From: a virus
IMG/VR virus record: IMGVR_UViG_3300037242_000077
Coordinates: 1-27,990 of that record
Reading direction: 5' to 3' (one strand)
Length of the DNA stretch: 27,990 nucleotides
In this document: positions 1-8,676 of the stretch, piece by piece
How the letters are laid out: every line of letters begins with the position of its first letter
How positions within the stretch are numbered: the first letter of the stretch is position 1
The notes under the pieces: model-generated
Seen by the model: the letters and a program-made list of their open reading frames with translations, nothing else
Databases searched by the model: none
What the model was told of the DNA's origin: nothing
Translations under genes and position numbers: made by a program

Positions 1-225
1 TCCTCATCTGACTGGAAGGCGATCAATGGCCGGCTGAATCGCGAGCGTCCCGCCAAGGAGGTGGGGTGCGGCGGCTGGCACGTCTTCCCGTTGATGTTGC
101 GGCAGATCGCGTTCCATTGCAATGGCGTGTGGAGTGAATACGAGCAACGGATCTACGGAGGAAAGGGCGTCGTGGGCGATTTGCGCCTGATCTTCCGGCA
201 AAGGAGGGACATGGATGGCAACTGA
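1..225 (+). CDS. Hypothetical protein, 5' end outside window
   Basis: Frame 1 is open from the window edge to a TGA at 223-225 (74 codons visible). The peptide is rich in Trp, Cys and aromatics (a GCGGWHVF stretch near residue 42). It overlaps the next gene by 11 nt, in keeping with the tight packing here. I do not recognise the family, and no catalytic motif is visible. The position just before a Rad52-like gene suggests an early recombination or replication accessory protein, which is inference only. Confidence 0.5.
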   Translation, partial: SSSDWKAINGRLNRERPAKEVGCGGWHVFPLMLRQIAFHCNGVWSEYEQRIYGGKGVVGDLRLIFRQRRDMDGN

Positions 226-1231
226 GACAGCGGTCAAGCCGACCGCAACCGGCAATGGCAAAACAGCTGAGCTCACTGTCTGGGACGAGCTCCGCAAGCC
301 CTTCTCGGGCAGCGAGATCGAGCAACGCAAAGGCGCGGGCGGCGCGATGCTCGACTACGTTTCCCACGCCAGAGTCCGCGACCGCCTGCTGAAAGTGGAC
401 CCGACCTGGACCTGGGAGCCGGTGGCCGCAGAGGCGTCGGGCCTTCCTGTCTTTGTCCGCTTCACCGGGGACTATGAGGTCCCGGTGTACGAAAACGGAA
501 GGAAGCGCATGGAGTCGCGCCGTGCCGAGGACGTCCCGATCGGTCTGTGGATCAAACTGACCGTCAACGGGGTGGGCAAGCTCGGATACGGCGACGTGCT
601 ACCGGGAGCCTTCAACCCCGAAAAGCAACTCATCGGTGACGCGATCCGCAACGCCGCGATGAACTTTGGCGTCGCCATCGACCTCTGGATGAAGGACGAA
701 GAGCCGGATGAGCGGACGGTGCAGACCGCTCCATCCCGGCCTTCGGCAGACTGGCAGCCCGTCTCTCCCCCTCCTCCTCCTGCGCCCAGTCGATACAGCG
801 ATGTCCCCTGCACGCAGCCGGGTTGCACGGGCAAGCTGGTGCAGCGCAACGGCACGCGCGGACCCTTCATCTCTTGCACCATGTATCAGAGCTGCGGGCT
901 GAAGCCGATCGACGGGACGATCGAGGAATACGTTGCCCGCGAGGCGGAGTTTGCCGACGCGCATGACGCCCCTCCCCCGCCAGAAATGCCTGATCCCGCA
1001 CTTGGGGATGTGGAATACATCGCCTCTGTCTGGAAGAAGGTCACCTCCAACATCCGGCTAGAGGCGTTTGGGGTCGGGAAGCTGGAAAGCGCCCTTTCTT
1101 TCAACTCAAAGAAGGTCTGGGTCCTTGCCGATACGGGCATCGACACCTTGCGAACCATGCCCGAAGATCGAGTCCACGCGGTCGCTGAATTCTTCAAGCT
1201 CTACCTCGCGCAACAGGCGGCACAGGCATGA
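215..1231 (+). CDS. Rad52-like single-strand annealing protein with C-terminal zinc ribbon
   Basis: 338 aa. Residues about 45-165 have the pattern of phage Rad52/Rad22-type annealing proteins: LDYVSHARVRDRLLKVD with WTWEPV, then a beta-rich stretch, and the terminal helix signature GDAIRNAAMNFGVAIDLW, comparable to the 'AFKRAAMRFG' segment of Rad52/DdrA. These proteins coat single-stranded DNA and pair complementary strands during phage recombination. A Pro-rich linker (about 180-193) leads to a four-Cys zinc ribbon (C199, C204, C221, C227) of the topoisomerase C-terminal type, which probably adds DNA binding. A helical tail follows. The start is ATG at 215 with SD AAGGAGG at 201-207. Family from pattern only; confident about the Rad52-like core, less about the exact subfamily. 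Confidence 0.72.
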   Translation: MATETAVKPTATGNGKTAELTVWDELRKPFSGSEIEQRKGAGGAMLDYVSHARVRDRLLKVDPTWTWEPVAAEASGLPVFVRFTGDYEVPVYENGRKRMESRRAEDVPIGLWIKLTVNGVGKLGYGDVLPGAFNPEKQLIGDAIRNAAMNFGVAIDLWMKDEEPDERTVQTAPSRPSADWQPVSPPPPPAPSRYSDVPCTQPGCTGKLVQRNGTRGPFISCTMYQSCGLKPIDGTIEEYVAREAEFADAHDAPPPPEMPDPALGDVEYIASVWKKVTSNIRLEAFGVGKLESALSFNSKKVWVLADTGIDTLRTMPEDRVHAVAEFFKLYLAQQAAQA

Positions 1232-1446
1232 GAGAAGGGCCACGCAGCCCCGAGCTAGACGCCGCCATAGAGCGTATCGCCCGCGACTACCCGCTAGGGC
1301 GGGCTGCGGTCCAAGCCTTTCCGTGGACCCCGATCTGGACAGACACCCACGGGGAATATGACGGGCAGCTGCGACGTGACGCAGAAGACGAGCTAGAACG
1401 CCAGATGGACGCTGACCGCGAGGCGGAATTTGGTGAGCCGCGGTGA
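1228..1446 (+). CDS. Small hypothetical protein
   Basis: 72 aa, highly charged. It starts with an ATGA overlap on the Rad52-like gene and is probably translationally coupled to it. The C-terminal part (about 45-70) is an acidic/basic helix rich in Asp, Glu and Arg. There is no recognisable domain. Its place between the annealing protein and a replication-organiser-like gene suggests a recombination/replication accessory role (inference). Confidence 0.6.
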   Translation: MREGPRSPELDAAIERIARDYPLGRAAVQAFPWTPIWTDTHGEYDGQLRRDAEDELERQMDADREAEFGEPR

Positions 1447-1514
1447 CAGCCGTCTTTGCCTTTGGGAGTGGACGGCTCCCGGAATTTCAGCAGATAAACA
1501 CTAGGGGGACGGCC

Positions 1515-2321
1515 TTGGCTTGGGCACGCTTCGATGACCAGTACCACAAGAACCCGAAGGTGCTGTCGGTCCCCCCGGCGGCTCGATGGCTTCACGCGGC
1601 CTCTGTCACCCATTCTCGTCTAGGGCGCAGCACGACCGGCTTTCTGACCATCCTGGAGGCCGAGGGCCTGGCGGTCGCGCAGAGCGTCAACCGTCGAGCG
1701 ATCACTCAACTGGCCGACGCGGGACTGTGGGACCGGACCGACGGCGGGTACTTGGTCCACGACTACCCGGATTACCTGCCGGAGTCATCCAAAGAACGGA
1801 CCCAGGCGTGGCGCGATCGCCTGTCGCGTGACGGTCACGGTGACGGAGGCGTGACGGTCACGGAAAGTCACAAGCCCGTCTCTCGCGCGACGGGTATACC
1901 CAATCCCAATCCCAATCCCGTACCCAGAGAAAGGGTAGCTAAAGCTACCCCAAAGATCGACCCTTACGCCGAGGGCGTTGACCGGGTGTTCGCTGCCTTC
2001 TTGAAGGGCACGAAGCGGAGTGCCAGCACGATGCTGACCCCAGAGCGCCGGAAGCACGTTCACGCTCGGTTGGCTCAGGGCTACGAAGAGGCGCGGGTGA
2101 TCCGGGCGGCGGTTGGGATCATGCGCGATCCGTGGTTTGTAGAGCACCACAAGACCGATCTCACGGACAGCTTGCGGAGCGGATCGACGCTAGAGCGGTT
2201 CGCTCAGCTCGAGGAAGAGGCCGCTCCGGTCTACCGGCACCCGACCCCGCTGACGGCTGCAGAACGCGGCGGGGAGCCGGCGCGGGTCACGGCAGCGGAC
2301 TTCGCTGGATTTACGGCGTGA
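1515..2321 (+). CDS. Replication organiser-like protein (helicase loader/initiator type)
   Basis: 268 aa from TTG 1515; an upstream GTG at 1443 overlapping the previous stop would give 292 aa. TTG 1515 is preferred because AGGGGG lies about 6 nt upstream, the typical N-terminal motif LAWARFDDQYHKNPKVL starts right there, and the same SD-TTG module recurs at 4343-4357. The N-terminal ~100 residues look like the winged-helix domain of phage replisome organisers (A.RWLHA, FLT, ITQLADAGLWDRTDGGYLVHDY). A Pro-Asn linker encoded by a CCCAAT repeat and a helical C-terminal domain (about 170-245) follow. Such proteins usually melt the phage origin or load the helicase. Function inferred from architecture and position. 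Confidence 0.55.
   Translation: MAWARFDDQYHKNPKVLSVPPAARWLHAASVTHSRLGRSTTGFLTILEAEGLAVAQSVNRRAITQLADAGLWDRTDGGYLVHDYPDYLPESSKERTQAWRDRLSRDGHGDGGVTVTESHKPVSRATGIPNPNPNPVPRERVAKATPKIDPYAEGVDRVFAAFLKGTKRSASTMLTPERRKHVHARLAQGYEEARVIRAAVGIMRDPWFVEHHKTDLTDSLRSGSTLERFAQLEEEAAPVYRHPTPLTAAERGGEPARVTAADFAGFTA
1899..1919 (+). repeat. CCCAAT hexanucleotide microsatellite
   Basis: Three and a half tandem copies of CCCAAT encode a Pro-Asn alternating linker in the replication organiser-like protein. The 6-nt unit keeps frame, so length changes would vary the linker between the N- and C-terminal domains without breaking the protein. Confidence 0.8.
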
Positions 2322-2479: not shown

Positions 2480-2527
2480 CTACTACGAGCGCGTGTTGAA
2501 GCCCAGAAGGGCTCAAAGGAGGACGGC

Positions 2528-2863
2528 ATGACACAGATGAAAGTCGGACAGGCCTTGCGCCAGGGGGACGTTCTCGTCGAGCGGGTGCGCCGGCGCACGT
2601 TGCCTAAGGGAACCTTCCAGGCCCCGCGCCAAGGACGTCTGATCTTGGCCTACGGCGAGGCGACCGGCCACCACCACTCGGTGGCCGTGGCCGACGGAGA
2701 GATGGTCGAGACGGAGGCCCACGAGGTCTTCCTGAGGATCATGCGGGCGACCACGATCGACCACCAGGAGCACGGCTCTCTGGCCCTTGATCGTGGGGTC
2801 TATAAGGTCACCATCCAGCAGGAGTACCAGCCCCGCGAGCTGCCTCGGCGCGTCGTCGACTGA
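2528..2863 (+). CDS. Small His-rich protein paired with DUF6745-like protein
   Basis: 111 aa. SD AAAGGAGGA lies at 2516-2524. The sequence begins with RQGDVLVERV, followed by LILAYGEATGHHHSVAV, then an IDHQEHGSLALDRGVYKV strand and the ending QQEYQPRELPRRVVD. From memory this whole pattern recurs in small proteins located directly upstream of DUF6745 proteins in actinobacterial and other genomes. The stop overlaps the next start by one base (TGATG), so the pair should be translated together. The conserved His cluster (HHH, and H in HQEH) could bind metal, but no reaction is known to me. The function is unknown; I am sure only of the pairing. Confidence 0.65.
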   Translation: MTQMKVGQALRQGDVLVERVRRRTLPKGTFQAPRQGRLILAYGEATGHHHSVAVADGEMVETEAHEVFLRIMRATTIDHQEHGSLALDRGVYKVTIQQEYQPRELPRRVVD

Positions 2864-4287
2864 TGGTCATCGCCAGCTTCCCCAAGCCCGTCTGGGAGGA
2901 CATCACCCGCCTGCGGGATGACTGGATGGCCGTTGGGCTGTCCACCGAGGAGGCGGACCGGTCCACGGCCGAACGGGCCGTGGACCGGCTCTATGCAGCC
3001 CACGGCCTACCGGCCCCGGTGCTGCGAATCTGGATGAGTTCGCCTCTCGGCGGCTGCCTTGGGGCAGCCGCCATCAACCAGCTCGCAAAGAACAAAGGCC
3101 AGCTCCGGGACCAGCTCTGGGACCAGCTCTGGGACCAGCTCTGGGACCAGCTCGGGGGCCAGCTCCGGGACCAGGGCCAGCTCTGGGACCAGCTCCGGGA
3201 CCAGCTCCGGGGCCAGCTCTGGGGCCAGCTCTGGGACCAGCTCGGGGGCCAGCTCCGGGACCAGGGCCAGCTCGGGGGCCAGCTCCGGGGCCAGCTCTGG
3301 GACCAGCTCCGGGGCCAGCTCCGGGACCAGCTCGGGGACCAGCTCCGGGGCCAGCTCTGGGACCAGGGCCGGGACCTGGGCCAGCTCTGGGACCAGCTCC
3401 GGGACCAGCTCTGGGGCCAGCTCTGGGACCAGCTCGGGGACCAGCTCTGGGACCAGCTCGGGGGCCAGCTCCGGGACCAGGGCCAGCTCTGGGACCAGCT
3501 CCGGGGCCAGCTCTGGGACCAGCTCCGGGGCCAGCTCCGGGACCAGCTCCGGGGCCAGCTCTGGGACCAGGGCCAGCTCGGGGGCCAGCTCTGGGACCAG
3601 CTCCGGGACCTCGGGGGCCAGCCCGGGGGCCAGCTCCGGTTTGAGATGTCCTCCTGGTGGGAGGCATACGGACTCGCCTGGTACCGCGCAGCGGTCCTGG
3701 GCGGCGCCAAGCTCGAGGAATCGCTGGCTACCAAGCTGACCGCTACAGAAGACGCCGCCAAGGCCCTCGGCTGGTGGTGGCCGATGCACGGCGCGGTGGT
3801 GCTCACCGACAGGCCGTCACGACTGTTTCGCGACGGCCAGGGGCGCCTGCATGCCGGCGACGGGCCCGCTCTCGGGTACCGGGACGGATATGGCCTCTGG
3901 GCCTGGCACGGGGTCCGCGTGACCCAACAGATCATCGAGTCTCCGGAGACGCTCAAGCCTGCCGAAATCCTCCAGGAGCGAAACGCCGAGATTCGGCGCG
4001 TGATGATCGAACGTTTCGGTCCGGATCGCCTGATGTCGGCTGCGAATCCCGAGGTCCTGCACCAGGACGTCGACGGGGTCGGCAAGCCACGGCGATTGCT
4101 GCGCATCCGGCTCACGGAGGACGAGCCGCTCGTGATGGTTGAGGTCGTCAACTCCTCACCTGAGCCGGATGGGGTGTTCCGCAACTACCTGCTGCGCGTC
4201 CCTCCGGACACGCAGACCTGCCACCAGGCGATCGCCTGGACCTTTCAGAAAACGCCCGACGAGTACGAGGTGATCAAGCAGAGCTAG
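2863..4287 (+). CDS. DUF6745-like protein with 40-copy QLxx tetrapeptide array
   Basis: 474 aa. Residues 1-79 form an N-terminal helical part ([33 protein letters not shown]). Residues 80-260 are a tetrapeptide array QL-[W/R/G]-[D/G]. Residues about 265-474 carry the family core: a Trp-rich [11 protein letters not shown] stretch, [55 protein letters not shown] and LRVPP with a terminal AIAWTF. I recognise these as DUF6745 (PF20530) hallmarks. No catalytic residues are assigned in that family. The array falls between N-terminal and core parts, as in other members I recall with W/R/G-rich repeats. Coupled to the upstream small protein. Biological role unknown; it is cargo, not a known phage structural part. 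Confidence 0.68.
3100..3642 (+). repeat. 12-nt tandem array encoding 40 QLxx tetrapeptides
   Basis: Forty 12-nt units read CAG-CTC-NGG-GRC. In 39 of them only position 7 (T, C or G) and position 11 (A or G) vary, giving WD (14), RD (9), RG (7), GG (5), WG (2) and GD (2); the last unit ends RF. Four 6-nt half units (encoding QG) and two longer irregular inserts (QGRDLG, LGGQPGG) interrupt the array without breaking frame. Higher-order blocks recur; for example [14 protein letters not shown] occurs three times, pointing to unequal exchange or slippage. Because 12 is a multiple of three, every reading frame through the array is itself a tetrapeptide repeat, and all six are open. Confidence 0.95.
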
Positions 4288-4354
4288 CGCGGCGATCGAC
4301 CAGCAGCATTCACCACCTTTTCATCAGCAAACCCAACAAGGGGAAGGGACGGCC

Positions 4355-4432
4355 TTGGTTTGGATCCGGCACAACGACGTCGGCGGCCACATGCCCGACA
4401 AACTGCTGGCACTGCCAGCGGGGAAGGGTTGA
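4355..4432 (+). pseudogene. Remnant of a second replication-organiser N-terminus
   Basis: A 25-codon ORF from TTG 4355 reads LVWIRHNDVGGHMPDKLLALPAG. It aligns with the start of the gene at 1515 (LAWARFDDQYHKNPKVLSVPPA) and shares the DNA string GGGACGGCCTTGG followed by C/T and TTGG across the SD and start codon. It stops where the parent domain continues. Its TGA overlaps the ATG of the next gene (TGATG). It may now act as a leader ORF coupling translation of the next gene, or may be a relic of duplication and deletion. Confidence 0.55.
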
Positions 4433-4638
4433 TGGCCGCTCGACTCCGCCCGGCTGCGAAGGACAAGGAGACGGGCCGCTTCAAGCCGCCCCTGAAGGTC
4501 GAGGACTCGCGCGGGGAGATCAGCCTCTACTTCACCGACCTTGATACCGAGTGGGCTGACAAGACGGAGACGATCCCGGGCTGGCGGGGCTGGCTCGGCA
4601 CGCAGATTTGCCGTGGGCTTGGGGTGGGACCGCTGTGA
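4432..4638 (+). CDS. Small hypothetical protein
   Basis: 68 aa from ATG 4432, overlapping the preceding leader ORF by one base (TGATG), with GGGAAGGG upstream as SD. A basic N-terminus (AARLRPAAKDKETGRFKPP) is followed by an acidic stretch and a Trp-rich segment (GWRGWLGTQICRG). I recognise no family. It overlaps the downstream HNH-like gene by 4 nt. Confidence 0.5.
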   Translation: MAARLRPAAKDKETGRFKPPLKVEDSRGEISLYFTDLDTEWADKTETIPGWRGWLGTQICRGLGVGPL

Positions 4639-5102
4639 GCTTGACTCAGCGCAAGCCCCTACCCAAATTGGGGCCAGTAAAGAAGCGCTGGGCCTCCTGG
4701 CAGCGCAGCCAAGCGGAGATCGTAAAAGCTAGGGCTTGCGGTTTGTGCGAAGGGTGTGGGAAGGACAGTCGGCCGCTGCAGGTCGCCCATCTTCTCGGCA
4801 GACGAAATCTCGTAGCCGAGCCGTGGGCGAGCTGGTCAGGTTTGTGCGCTCATCTCTGTTCTGCCCATCCGAGCTATGGGCTGGGTTGCCACGAACGCCT
4901 GGATGGACGGAAGGATCTTCCGCTCAGGGAACGCCTGCTTTGGACTGCCGCATGGCGGAGCAACTTGGTGTTTGGAGACGAATTGGTGTCGCTGGCGATG
5001 GCTGAAGAGCGACCCGAGGACGCGATACGCGGCCTGATTAGACGCGCCGAAGCCTTGGGTATCACCCCTGATCCATCCAGAGAGCTAGAGGAGAGAGGCT
5101 AG
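4635..5102 (+). CDS. HNH/recombination endonuclease-like Cys-rich protein
   Basis: 155 aa from GTG 4635 (GTGA overlap). C35, C38 and C41 (CGLCEGC) are followed by LQVAHLLGRR (H52), then ASWSGLCAHLC and a later GCHERL. This C-x2-C ... H ... C ... CH pattern resembles phage HNH nucleases of the recombination type, in which the first catalytic His lies in an H-H or A-H pair before a G-R segment. The C-terminus (from about 105) is helical, ending in a charged tail. It may process recombination intermediates next to the Rad52-like protein (inference). The second strictly required catalytic residues cannot be confirmed by eye. Confidence 0.5.
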   Translation: MSLTQRKPLPKLGPVKKRWASWQRSQAEIVKARACGLCEGCGKDSRPLQVAHLLGRRNLVAEPWASWSGLCAHLCSAHPSYGLGCHERLDGRKDLPLRERLLWTAAWRSNLVFGDELVSLAMAEERPEDAIRGLIRRAEALGITPDPSRELEERG

Positions 5103-5317
5103 TGGCAGAGACGATCGCGGAGTACGACCACTGTGACTGGCGCGACTGTCCCGAGCGCGGTGTGGACACAGTTGAAGGGCGGCACTACTGCCAGCCCCAC
5201 CATGCCATCGCTTGGAGCCACGAGATGGAGTTGCGAGGCAAATGGCTGCTCAACGAACTGCTGGAGACGGAGCTACCCGAGACTTTCTCCCCGGTCCCCC
5301 GAGAGGAGAGAGGATGA
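5102..5317 (+). CDS. Small putative zinc-binding protein
   Basis: 71 aa from GTG 5102, one base overlapping the preceding TAG. C-x4-C (CDWRDC), then YCQPHH, could coordinate zinc: VEGRHYCQPH resembles the second half of the small Cys/His knuckles common in actinophage early genes. The rest is an acidic helix (KWLLNELLETELPE). Function unknown. Confidence 0.55.
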   Translation: MAETIAEYDHCDWRDCPERGVDTVEGRHYCQPHHAIAWSHEMELRGKWLLNELLETELPETFSPVPREERG

Positions 5318-5511
5318 CCCGAGCCTTGGTGATGAGCGACTACGCGGACCCCGACACCGAGATCGAGCGGCTGAGCGCGGCGGCGGAGGCGGCGCGAGTC
5401 CTAGACGCCGTGATGGATCGCGGACCCGTCAGGATGCCCCTGGGCGGCCTCACCGCAGCCAACAACCTTCGTAGCGCCCTGGCGGCTCTTGAGGGGAAGC
5501 CCCGTGGGTAG
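5314..5511 (+). CDS. Small hypothetical protein
   Basis: 65 aa from ATG 5314 (ATGA overlap), with GAGAGGAGAG upstream as SD. Acidic N-terminus, then an Ala-rich helix (EIERLSAAAEAARVLDAVMD). The C-terminus ALEGKP is encoded by the first, partial copy of the repeated module also found at 5651 and 6026. No recognised domain. Confidence 0.55.
   Translation: MTRALVMSDYADPDTEIERLSAAAEAARVLDAVMDRGPVRMPLGGLTAANNLRSALAALEGKPRG
5481..5502 (+). repeat. Partial copy (22 nt) of the 41-bp RBS module
   Basis: Identical to the first part of the repeats at 5651 and 6026 (GGCGGCTCTTGAGGGGAAGC and two more C). It places the GAGGGG SD a few bases before GTG 5504. Confidence 0.85.
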
Positions 5512-5704
5512 CTGGCGCTGCTCGAATCCGGTCCATCCCGCGCCCTGCTGGCATGGCAAGTGCCCGATCTGCCGCAAGGGAGTGACGGCCTTCGACTACA
5601 ACCGAGAGGACGCCGAGGCCATCGTCGCCTCGCACATAGCCAAAGCCCATCCCGGGGCGGCTCTTGAGGGGAAGCCCTACAAGGAGGAGAACGGTGCCGA
5701 CTGA
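5504..5704 (+). CDS. Small zinc-finger-like protein
   Basis: 66 aa from GTG 5504, SD GAGGGG at 5491-5496, overlapping the previous gene by 8 nt. It reads WRCSNPVHPAPC, HGKCPICRKG, then AEAIVASHIAKAH. The C-x2-C plus H-x4-H arrangement looks like a C2H2-type finger. The C-terminus AALEGKPYKEEN is encoded by the 41-bp repeat that carries the SD of the next gene. Possible DNA-binding role (inference). Confidence 0.55.
   Translation: MGSWRCSNPVHPAPCWHGKCPICRKGVTAFDYNREDAEAIVASHIAKAHPGAALEGKPYKEENGAD
5651..5691 (+). repeat. 41-bp direct repeat carrying an RBS, copy A
   Basis: Exact 41-bp match to 6026-6066. It ends in CAAGGAGGAGAA, giving a strong SD 6 nt before GTG 5694. The front half is coding for the C-terminus of the upstream gene. 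Confidence 0.92.
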
Positions 5705-6066: not shown

Positions 6067-6291
6067 GTGAAAGCGACCCCCGCTGAGAACGACCCGCGCA
6101 TTCTCTTGGCCTACGGACGGCCAGAGACGGAACACCGCGAGGTTGACACCTACAGTGTGGCCGAGATAGCCGGGCTGAGGGCCGAGGTCGGGCGGCTGCG
6201 GGCCATAATCGCTTGGGCTGGCAACGAGGAGGCGGTGCGTGTCGCTGGTCTCGTGAAGCCGAGTCCGGAGGAGCCTAGCCATGCCCACTAG
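6067..6291 (+). CDS. Small coiled-coil protein
   Basis: 74 aa from GTG 6067 directly after the repeat-borne SD AGGAGGAGAA. Residues about 32-50 (AEIAGLRAEVGRLRAIIAW) give a short heptad-like coiled coil, suggesting an oligomer. It ends inside the start of the methyltransferase gene (11-nt overlap), within a 22-bp direct repeat. No known family. Confidence 0.5.
   Translation: MKATPAENDPRILLAYGRPETEHREVDTYSVAEIAGLRAEVGRLRAIIAWAGNEEAVRVAGLVKPSPEEPSHAH
6270..6291 (+). repeat. 22-bp start-module direct repeat, copy 1
   Basis: GGAGCCTAGCCATGCCCACT plus AG, identical to 6863-6884. It contains an SD (GGAG), an upstream stop and the ATG-CCC-ACT start of the methyltransferase. Confidence 0.92.
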
Positions 6292-6871
6292 CTGGGAAGG
6301 GTTGAATCCGCCCTACTCAACCATCGTGGCTGATCCACCGTGGCCATACCGCGAGGGCTGGCCCGGATGGGCTGGCGACGAACGGAAGCGGCGCCGTCCG
6401 CTGCCTTATGCATGGATGACGGAGGACGAGATTTCCGATCTGCGGGTGTCCGACTTGGCAAAGCCTGAGGGCTATCTGTTCCTGTGGACGACTAGCCGCT
6501 ATCTTGAATCTGCGTTCGGGATCTGCCGTGAGTGGGCGTTCACACCGCGCCAAGTCCTGACGTGGTGCAAACCCGCTGCAGGGCAAGGCCCGGGAGGGAT
6601 GTTCGCCACCACGACCGAGTTTGTCATCGTGGGCCAGCGGATCGGCCCGGCGAGCCACGCCAGAGGGAAAAGGACGAACGGTGAACGAGTGGAGACGTCG
6701 TGGTTTGAGTGGCCCCGTGGTGCGCACAGCGTCAAACCCCCGGCCTTCTATGACCTAGTAGAGCGCGTCAGCCCCGGCCCCTATGTAGAGCTATTCGCTC
6801 GTCAACCCCGTCTCGGCTGGGACTCCTGGGGCTGGGGCTATGAAGAATCCACGCTTTTGAGGGGAGCCTAG
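6281..6871 (+). CDS. MT-A70 family adenine DNA methyltransferase
   Basis: 196 aa. The catalytic DPPW motif is at residues 18-21, after STIVA, as in MT-A70-type N6-adenine methyltransferases, which transfer a methyl group from S-adenosylmethionine to adenine. Further family signs are YLFLWTTSRYLESAF (about 66-80), TPRQVLTWCKP, the EFVIVGQR strand and the closing YVELFARQPRLGWDSWGWG (about 168-186). No target-recognition domain is obvious. In phages such orphan enzymes commonly protect DNA against host restriction. The gene lies exactly between two 22-bp repeats that duplicate its start site. Identity secure at family level; target sequence unknown. Confidence 0.88.
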   Translation: MPTSWEGLNPPYSTIVADPPWPYREGWPGWAGDERKRRRPLPYAWMTEDEISDLRVSDLAKPEGYLFLWTTSRYLESAFGICREWAFTPRQVLTWCKPAAGQGPGGMFATTTEFVIVGQRIGPASHARGKRTNGERVETSWFEWPRGAHSVKPPAFYDLVERVSPGPYVELFARQPRLGWDSWGWGYEESTLLRGA

Positions 6872-7341: not shown

Positions 7342-7969
7342 AGACCATCCGCGCAGGTGTAGATGCGCCTTCCACGCCTGCAGATCGTTTCTCCGCTACT
7401 CAGCCGACGTCACTCACCCTCTCAGCGGAGCGACGGTGAAGATCGCCAGCTGGGGTGGTTCCAGGTCAGGCTCAGGTGAGCCCGATCGGCACTACGACAT
7501 CGTGGTCGAGTGGTCGGACTGCGCTCGAGCCTTGGCTGAAGTTAAGAACCCCTTCTGGCGAATGGCCGGGCAGCTGAGGCTAGAGATGGCCGACGGGTAT
7601 GAGGTCGGCAAGAAGCTGAACAGTCAATTCCCGGCGGACTGGAACGAGGCTTACCTGACTCGGCACCGCGAACACAGCCCTCAAACGATAGCCGTCGTCG
7701 TGGCTGAGTCAGAGATGCCCGTCCAGTGGACGGTCAACTGTCCCTGCCAGTGGACGGATGAGGTGTTCTCCGAGATCGATGCAGCCAAATCGGTTCGATC
7801 CCACCTCTCCCCTCTTCGCGAAGCCTTGGAGCAGTGCGCGCTCGCCATGGCTCTTCGACTAGGGGTCGATTTCGGGACTGCCAAGCTCGTCGCCGAGCTG
7901 GTCATTCCGGCTGCGCCGCCGGAGCATCAACGGGTGGTATCTCGGCGCCTGGCGGCCACCACCGCTTGA
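7334..7969 (+). CDS. Hypothetical protein
   Basis: 211 aa from ATG 7334 (8-nt overlap with the preceding gene). The N-terminus is Cys-rich (RRCRCAFHACRSF). A beta-rich middle contains DRHYDIVVEWSDCARALAEVKNPFW, and a later helical part includes SEIDAAKSVRSHLSPLREALEQCALAMALRLG. Two further cysteines occur as CPC. I recognise no family. The length and mixed composition suggest an enzyme or nucleic-acid-binding protein, but nothing seen decides it. Confidence 0.55.
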   Translation: MNEDHPRRCRCAFHACRSFLRYSADVTHPLSGATVKIASWGGSRSGSGEPDRHYDIVVEWSDCARALAEVKNPFWRMAGQLRLEMADGYEVGKKLNSQFPADWNEAYLTRHREHSPQTIAVVVAESEMPVQWTVNCPCQWTDEVFSEIDAAKSVRSHLSPLREALEQCALAMALRLGVDFGTAKLVAELVIPAAPPEHQRVVSRRLAATTA

Positions 7970-8676
7970 CAAGCGAACTTAGTTTGACAGAGGATGGTGC
8001 GGCTAGAATCGTCCCCCGAGCGAAAGTCGCCGTCTACACGGCCATCGTCGGCGGCTACGACGATCTCAAGCCTCATCCCGACGACGAGAGCGTGGACTGG
8101 ATCTGCTTCTCTGACCGCGACCAGCCAGATCTAGGCTGGCAGGTCCGGAAGATCGTTCCCAAGCCCAACATCCACCCGCGGATGGTAGCCAAGCGCTACA
8201 AGGTACTGCCCCACCTGGTCTTGCCCGAATACGACATCACCATTTGGGTCGATGGCTCGCACCTAGTGCGGTCACCCCACTTCGCCCGTGAGGCGGTTGA
8301 ACAGCTGGGTGATTCCTCGTGGGCGCAGTACCGCCATCCTGACCGAGACTGCATCTACGACGAACTCGAGATCAGCCTGACCCTCCAGAAGTACGTCGGC
8401 CAGTCGATGCGAGAGCAGGTCGACAACTATCGGACCGAAGGCCATCCCGCCCACTGGGGCCTTTGGGCAGCTGGCACTCTGGTCAGACGTCGCAACCAGC
8501 GAGTCGCGGATCTCTGCCGTGAGTGGTGGAGCGAGATCATCTGCTGGAGCTACCAAGACCAGCTTAGCCTGCCAGTCGTGTTCAGGCGAACGGGAATTCG
8601 ACCAGTCGAGTTTCACCACTCCCAAACCTTGGGAAATCCGTGGCTGTCGATCATCGCTCACCACTCAGAGGAGTAA
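7966..8676 (+). CDS. DUF616/TOD1-MUCI70-like glycosyltransferase domain protein
   Basis: 236 aa if it starts at TTG 7966 (TTGA overlap); TTG 7984 is an alternative and neither has a strong SD. The N-terminal strand KVAVYTAIVGGYDDLKPH, followed by DWICFSDRDQP and GWQVRKI, then KRYKVLPHLVLPEYDITIWVDGSH, is the signature of the DUF616 (PF04765) glycosyltransferase-like family: the first nucleotide-sugar strand, the CFSD segment and a WVDGS metal-binding-type motif at the end of the core. A C-terminal part with WGLWAAGTLVRRRNQ and WSYQDQLSLPVVFRR also fits. It may glycosylate phage DNA, virion proteins or host envelope; the sugar and acceptor cannot be told. Confidence 0.68.
   Translation: MTSELSLTEDGAARIVPRAKVAVYTAIVGGYDDLKPHPDDESVDWICFSDRDQPDLGWQVRKIVPKPNIHPRMVAKRYKVLPHLVLPEYDITIWVDGSHLVRSPHFAREAVEQLGDSSWAQYRHPDRDCIYDELEISLTLQKYVGQSMREQVDNYRTEGHPAHWGLWAAGTLVRRRNQRVADLCREWWSEIICWSYQDQLSLPVVFRRTGIRPVEFHHSQTLGNPWLSIIAHHSEE

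Follow-up and report, generated by a model that had tools for sequence, protein, structure and literature searches.

The locus studied here raises the question of whether two adjacent phage genes, encoding a small protein with conserved histidines and a larger repeat protein, form a unit and, if so, what such a unit could do. The sequence analysed (below referred to as the window) is a 27,990-base IMG/VR virus record, in which the gene pair lies directly downstream of the genes for single-strand annealing and replication initiation (table 1). The coordinates and lengths initially given for the two genes, as well as their overlap by one nucleotide, are borne out by reading the sequence, with the small-gene TGA at 2861–2863 running into the large-gene ATG at 2863–2865. 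As had also been stated, neither protein has a known function: the family entry for DUF6745 (PF20530) gives none, and the small protein only matches phrog_27831, where no function is assigned. No functional paper on DUF6745, DUF7666, the repeat strings or STM4011–STM4015 emerged from the literature searched. Just upstream of the pair, a short ORF at 2318–2479 seems to resemble the start of a ParB-type domain and then stops; a Pfam search with this ORF gave no match. Accessory genes 3′ of the pair include those for a DNA methyltransferase (phrog_359, 6281–6871) and a glycosyltransferase (phrog_26101, 7903–8676).

Table 1. Position of the gene pair, its parts and its upstream neighbours in the window.
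Feature	Position	Strand	Basis and remarks
ERF-type single-strand annealing protein (SSAP)	215–1231	+	phrog_3290, E 5e-33
Replication initiation protein	1443–2321	+	phrog_2447, E 3e-10
Strong ribosome-binding-type sequence AAAGGAGGA	2515–2523	+	read directly; precedes small gene, 4 bases from its ATG
Small partner protein, 111 aa, predicted beta protein	2528–2863	+	ORF; AlphaFold2; conserved QGD, ExTGHxH, HxEH, terminal D
TGATG overlap of small-gene stop and large-gene start	2861–2865	+	one base (A) in common
Large partner protein, 474 aa, DUF6745 (PF20530)	2863–4287	+	ORF and profile match
N-terminal part of large protein, conserved, mainly helical, residues 1–77	2863–3093	+	alignments; AlphaFold2
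Tetrapeptide array, 12-bp unit, residues ~80–259	3099–3639	+	TRF and in-frame unit scoring
DUF6745 C-terminal domain, residues 284–473	3712–4281	+	profile; AlphaFold2 pLDDT mostly above 85

Co-occurrence of the two genes

In viruses, the two genes are found together whichever of them serves as the starting point. Starting from the small gene in IMG/VR, a database in which contigs are frequently incomplete and some could be cellular DNA labelled as viral, a DUF6745 gene or its cut remnant lies alongside in 35 of 35 viral loci. In 30 of these, DUF6745 is recognized by profile, in three the DUF6745 N-terminus and repeats are present and cut by the contig end, and in the remaining two (L257 and L258, with the same protein type) there is an adjacent ORF, the C-terminal half of which, as judged by eye for L258, is DUF6745-like, divergent and with no profile confirmation. 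Small genes seemingly without DUF6745 (L225, L233 and L245) are accompanied by a DUF6745 gene cut at the contig end. Starting from DUF6745, for which 80 of 345 relatives were kept, the contig start cuts off 21 loci; of the 59 with the upstream side on the contig, 57 have the small gene within about 0.6 kb and two do not. The order is small gene first in 48 of the 57 viral pairs and DUF6745 first in nine, always on the same strand. The two loci without a small gene are L191 and L154; the latter (3559–5618) consists of two tandem DUF6745 genes with different arrays, no small partner nearby and a complete pair (L149) elsewhere on the same contig. The viral scans rest on short conserved patterns with at most 80 loci each, so these are counts of sampled relatives; several loci are near-duplicates, and clustered counts were used where relevant. 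That homologues might rarely co-occur, which the preliminary description had singled out as speaking against a unit, is the opposite of what these numbers show.

Co-occurrence is also the rule in bacteria, where the pair had been stated to recur and where, as in viruses, it is indeed found far above chance. The small protein as a query yielded 13 loci in GTDB genomes, with DUF6745 in 11 and a contig end in two (the match in L050 is weak). DUF6745 as a query gave nine hits in 296 Actinomycetota genomes; eight come with the small gene and one is at a contig end, i.e. the partner is present in all eight genomes with the neighbour on the contig. Matches occur in 60 of 121 Micromonosporaceae genomes; there, the partner was found in 8/8 strong loci examined and in 6/7 middle-scoring loci. 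The partner in the latter mostly belongs to a divergent type (GGNPH...HPEHG) that had escaped the first profile, and the same applies to five DUF6745 genes that seemed to be without a partner (L117, L118, L119, L121 and L123). By profile, L105, L106 and L120 still have no partner, L136 is at a contig end, and L135 and L124–L126 are weak or partial matches that are perhaps not true DUF6745. The L124, L125 and L126 products are chromosomal Micromonosporaceae proteins of ~300 aa with a match confined to the N-terminal portion of the DUF6745 profile; they have no detected partner and perhaps represent a separate family.

Microcystis phages have relatives of both proteins, and further relatives of the DUF6745 protein are found in an environmental phage and in a prophage of Mycobacterium abscessus; in each case the genes are adjacent, in either order. 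Moreover, the distances of the two proteins correlate, with r 0.67 over 83 distinct viral pairs (computed on distinct sequences, with some loci having been fetched twice by different scans), the highest value in 1000 permutations being 0.29. The gene pair is obligate, conserved and co-evolving, and there is little room for doubt that it is an obligate pair in functional terms, too.

The two proteins

Profile searches placed the small protein in no Pfam, NCBIfam or PADLOC family. A UreE_N fold was rejected, since the match over 14 residues (16.3 bits) is below the curated cut-off of 26.9 bits. Among 83 distinct viral copies, Q12-G13-D14, E44, T46, G47, H48, H50, H79, E81, H82 and D111 (window numbering) are conserved at 93–100% and make up the four strictly conserved motifs given in table 1. 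Of the ‘conserved HHH cluster’ proposed previously, the outer histidines are retained as H-x-H, but the middle one is not conserved across these 83 copies, and in divergent relatives of the small protein the GHxH part is lost. The AlphaFold2 model of the small protein is all-beta (mean pLDDT 83.8), and a profile search of PDB sequences returned zero matches. Its pattern of histidine, glutamate and aspartate residues suggests a putative metal site; this is a guess from residue conservation, because the sequence and fold searches made here revealed no solved structure similar to either partner.

PF20530 is matched by the large protein with E 4e-59 and 199.7 bits; as this exceeds the curated cut-off of 27 and spans most of the profile (positions 21–205 of 206), the protein qualifies as a member of DUF6745. 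Its AlphaFold2 model has pLDDT values mostly between 83 and 96 at residues 11–70, but below 50 for most of the array, which appears as long low-confidence helices. The regions flanking the array are under purifying selection (dN/dS 0.04–0.38 in close pairs). A profile search of PDB sequences with DUF6745 gave only matches with E above 0.3, and when the AlphaFold2 models of both proteins were compared with PDB folds, no usable match emerged (best VIA Z 3.5 and 3.9, Foldseek E above 0.7), which is no proof of new folds.

A tetrapeptide array with two hypervariable residues

Between its conserved parts, the large protein carries a 12-bp tandem array of about 48 copies (TRF), which in frame reads as a tetrapeptide x1-x2-Q-L. 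The 36 in-register units that were scored in the window have mostly W, R or G at x1, D or G at x2 and the core QL (WDQL 11, RGQL 7, RDQL 5, GGQL 4, QGQL 3, GDQL 2, WGQL 2, LGQL 1 and KGQL 1), with core codons CAG CTC that are invariant across these units. With a run of at least six tetrapeptide units as the criterion, 99 of 128 viral DUF6745 proteins have such an array, compared with 4 of 25 other bacterial copies and none of the 22 bacterial copies linked to the STM4011–STM4015 genes (see below); some of the 29 viral proteins without an array by this criterion are cut at a contig end. Depending on the phage, the core is QL, SV, QV, AV, AT, SL, NL or QI, x1 is mainly R, G or W, followed by D, and x2 is mainly D, A, S or G, with a unit composition that differs among loci. 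Some DUF6745-family arrays consist of 9-bp or 18-bp units (L213:31–265, L250:4141–4292 and L226:5530–5908).

Variation within the 12-bp unit is concentrated in two bases. Over 85 distinct arrays, entropy per base is 1.41, 0.64, 0.17 / 0.23, 0.84, 0.22 / 0.12, 0.08, 0.10 / 0.12, 0.03, 0.16 bits, i.e. it peaks at the first base of codon 1 and at the second base of codon 2, with a mean of 0.16 bits for the wobble bases; dropping the residue criterion that had defined the units left these entropies almost unchanged. In 84 of the 85 arrays, no wobble base is as variable as the first base of codon 1, and the same is true of each of the 47 clusters formed at 60% C-terminal identity. The bases found are T, C, A and G at the variable position of codon 1 and A, C and G at that of codon 2, and the same two positions are variable whatever the core sequence. 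pN/pS within arrays has a median of 4.4 and is above 1 in 81 of 85, being only 1.08 in the AT-richer array of L002.

Arrays turn over fast. Two DUF6745 proteins that are 95.8% identical in their C-terminal 190 residues (L206/L210) have different arrays, as do two others with 95.3% identity in the C-terminal region (L189/L190), and even at 100% identity in this region (L174/L176) there are 26 units in one and 29 in the other. The ‘interchangeable repeat spacer’ of the preliminary description is a tandem array of 12-bp units with hypervariable positions locked to the reading frame, and it provides the strongest functional signal of the locus.

The array is also found outside of the DUF6745 family. 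A DNA pattern scan for SV-type arrays revealed 36 loci in which the array is part of a different protein, with an N-terminus of the MCxFFS type, of the YKLARPDGFDFYTG type or with DUF7666 (PF24703 was matched by two of the seven examined) and with a tail of the form W-x-Y-x-G-S-x-F ... GLVPSFDGKTWRLHxG. The small partner is present in none of these 36 loci. The variable bases are the same, with the maximum at base 1 in 29 of 33 cases and at the second base of codon 2 in four. The RLH motif in the tail recalls the GRLHxxxGPA motif of DUF6745, and the regions following the array in the two architectures may be distantly related. All 36 loci of this second group, which lie between L262 and L338 in our collection, are viral and combine a [WRG][DA]SV array with a conserved WAYxGSxF...GLVPSFDGKTWRLH tail (e.g. 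L318:3028–3759, L326:7054–7878 and L304:730–1494). Of 76 stretches with QL-type arrays, 52 belong to DUF6745 proteins and 7 more are cut but DUF6745-like; one contig (L357/L389) has a QL-type array in another architecture.

Selection for residue diversity at x1 and x2 is the simplest explanation for this pattern, because repeat homogenization should affect all twelve bases alike, yet it is mainly two non-synonymous positions, the same ones for different cores, that vary. We therefore regard diversifying selection at the protein level as likely. Low wobble variation could in part result from extreme codon bias together with recent array expansion, and codon bias may explain single arrays such as that of L002. 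A diversity-generating retroelement was set aside provisionally, as an RVT_1 search found no reverse transcriptase match in the window record, which may be a fragment.

Alternatively, the array could just be an elastic spacer or oligomerization stalk that changes by tandem slippage, with x1 and x2 being unconstrained and the constant domains doing the job. This would be in line with an array length that varies widely, with its absence in some phages and in 22 of 22 STM-linked bacterial copies, with the long low-confidence helices in the model and with the differences in unit composition among loci. In a neutral spacer, however, wobble variation should equal or exceed that at x1 and x2, whereas the wobble bases have on average only some 10% of the entropy of base 1, which itself surpasses every wobble base in all but one array. 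Moreover, the same two positions vary across different cores and in a second protein architecture. On balance, we consider a mere spacer unlikely, and return to x1 and x2 as residues that are probably kept diverse by selection.

With respect to known repeat proteins, the array follows the logic of the repeat-variable di-residues in TAL effectors, i.e. a constant core is repeated in tandem, each time with two adjacent residues that are hypervariable, and the units are reshuffled by repeat turnover. Within arrays, two hypervariable neighbouring residues per repeat and a conserved remainder are indeed what is found. TAL effector repeats, however, are units of 33–35 residues, and we rejected membership, as the array unit is 12 bp or four residues and no sequence relation was found. 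Pentapeptide repeat proteins share with the array short tandem peptide units and a regularly spaced aliphatic residue, but were likewise rejected, as their A(D/N)LXX units have five residues and the array has a period of four; in a control of only four pentapeptide arrays, wobble and non-wobble variation were 0.63 and 0.64 bits, unlike in the tetrapeptide array. Since membership fails in both cases, we place the array outside of these known kinds. DUF6745 and STM4011–STM4015 are already known as families that have a name but no assigned function; the literature searched contained no description of the pairing, of the partner family or of the hypervariable tetrapeptide array.

Possible functions and genomic surroundings

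The hypervariable array suggests a putative fast-changing recognition surface. In the mechanism that we propose, the two proteins would act together, probably as a complex, in which the small beta protein would contribute the putative metal site of His, Glu and Asp residues, and the DUF6745 protein would supply a constant scaffold, made of its N- and C-terminal parts, that in most phage copies holds the tetrapeptide array. While the two core residues would be homogenized within each array, x1 and x2 would be kept diverse and quickly reshuffled by repeat turnover. The array is thus predicted, from a region modelled at low confidence, to be a modular and diversifying recognition surface, which may allow a phage to keep up with a partner that changes, whether this is a factor or defence protein of its host or a rival phage. 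Defence, counter-defence and superinfection exclusion are all compatible with such a module. That the best overall explanation is a two-component module whose phage form bears a diversifying recognition array seems to us an evenly balanced proposition, and that the purpose of the array is recognition directed at a host or rival is one that we advance somewhat more tentatively still. A more far-reaching version, which we think is doubtful, is a portable, programmable module of four-residue repeats with two hypervariable residues each that would read a target element by element, occur in at least two architectures, be kept diverse by selection and fast turnover, and in the DUF6745 architecture have a dedicated small partner. 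Should the array serve as a recognition surface, then phages possess a compact, modular code for binding that evolves more rapidly than the remainder of the gene; it would be a tractable subject in phage–host or phage–phage conflict, and designable binding proteins could perhaps be derived from it.

When could such a module act? In ten other phages, the long neighbours of the pair include RecE-like, ParB-like, Sak4-like, DnaB-like, Bet-like and integrase proteins. A full ParB-like gene is found near the pair in L170. In Mycobacterium prophage prophiGD102-1 (gp37/gp38) and Microcystis phage Ma-LMM01 (gp175/gp174), the pair is adjacent in a replication-type region as well, all four proteins being annotated as hypothetical; gp174 differs from the window protein in having no tetrapeptide array. 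The Ma-LMM01 pair adjoins the gene for uracil-DNA glycosylase gp173 and is near that for DNA polymerase gp178, which both belong to the middle (replication) class (PMC5780444). This location beside recombination and replication genes suggests that the pair acts early or during replication, and we infer a role in conflict or host interaction in the early or replicative phase of infection.

In bacteria, the pair has different company. In 22 loci of Streptomyces, Nonomuraea, Micromonosporaceae, Deinococcus and Methylobacterium, it adjoins genes of the STM4011–STM4015 cluster (NCBIfam NF038073, NF006067, NF038075, NF038074 and NF038076), with STM4011–STM4012 being radical SAM proteins, STM4013 sulfatase-like, STM4014 a sub-threshold ATP-grasp match and STM4015 an LRR protein. 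In actinomycetes, these STM-linked copies form one clade (19 sequences, support 0.918), which is not monophyletic with the Methylobacterium copy; because the deep node of the tree is without support, we do not claim a direction of transfer. As the STM-linked version is array-less, the core job of the pair does not seem to need the array.

The pair might be a partner or substrate-carrier of an STM4011–4015-type modification pathway, which phages would borrow or block. Besides the 22 loci, a weak LRR-effector similarity that precedes DUF6745 in the Methylobacterium protein, just where the array would be, fits this idea, given that STM4015 is an LRR protein. Related phage copies of the pair, however, are never beside the cluster: none of 115 related viral loci has an STM4011–4015 gene, nor is there one among the window ORFs examined, and bacterial pairs also occur without the cluster nearby. 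We consider this reading rather improbable.

That the pair is an ordinary toxin–antitoxin or phage-defence unit, with one protein being toxic and the other neutralizing it, is suggested by two adjacent genes with translational overlap and by their mobile distribution. Yet neither protein matches a PADLOC family up to E 1, gene order varies, the pair sits within the replication region of Microcystis phages and bacterial copies adjoin a biosynthetic-looking cluster that is not a known defence system, such that we give this reading little credence. Of the mobile two-protein module for defence, counter-defence or stress that had been envisaged for this locus, what stands is a unit that recurs in many phages and bacteria and, in this phage, directly follows the genes for single-strand annealing and replication initiation; the defence role finds no match in PADLOC. 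Least probable of all is that the DNA of the array rather than the protein is functional, e.g. as an iteron-like origin or recombination site inside an early gene, since, although the 12-bp repeats adjoin replication genes and origins inside replication genes occur in other phages, the variable bases are locked to the reading frame, the core DNA is completely different between arrays, and arrays also occur in other genes without the pair and are absent from many pair carriers.

For the proposed recognition module as for its array-less bacterial relatives, near-perfect pairing provides a handle for finding the function of DUF6745 and of the uncharacterised STM4011–STM4015 cluster. In a series of bacterial loci (L100, L101, L102, L103, L108, L109–L116 and L127–L129), from actinomycetes, Deinococcus and Methylobacterium, the STM4011–STM4015 cluster regularly comes with the DUF6745 pair, sometimes with two or three STM4015 genes in tandem.
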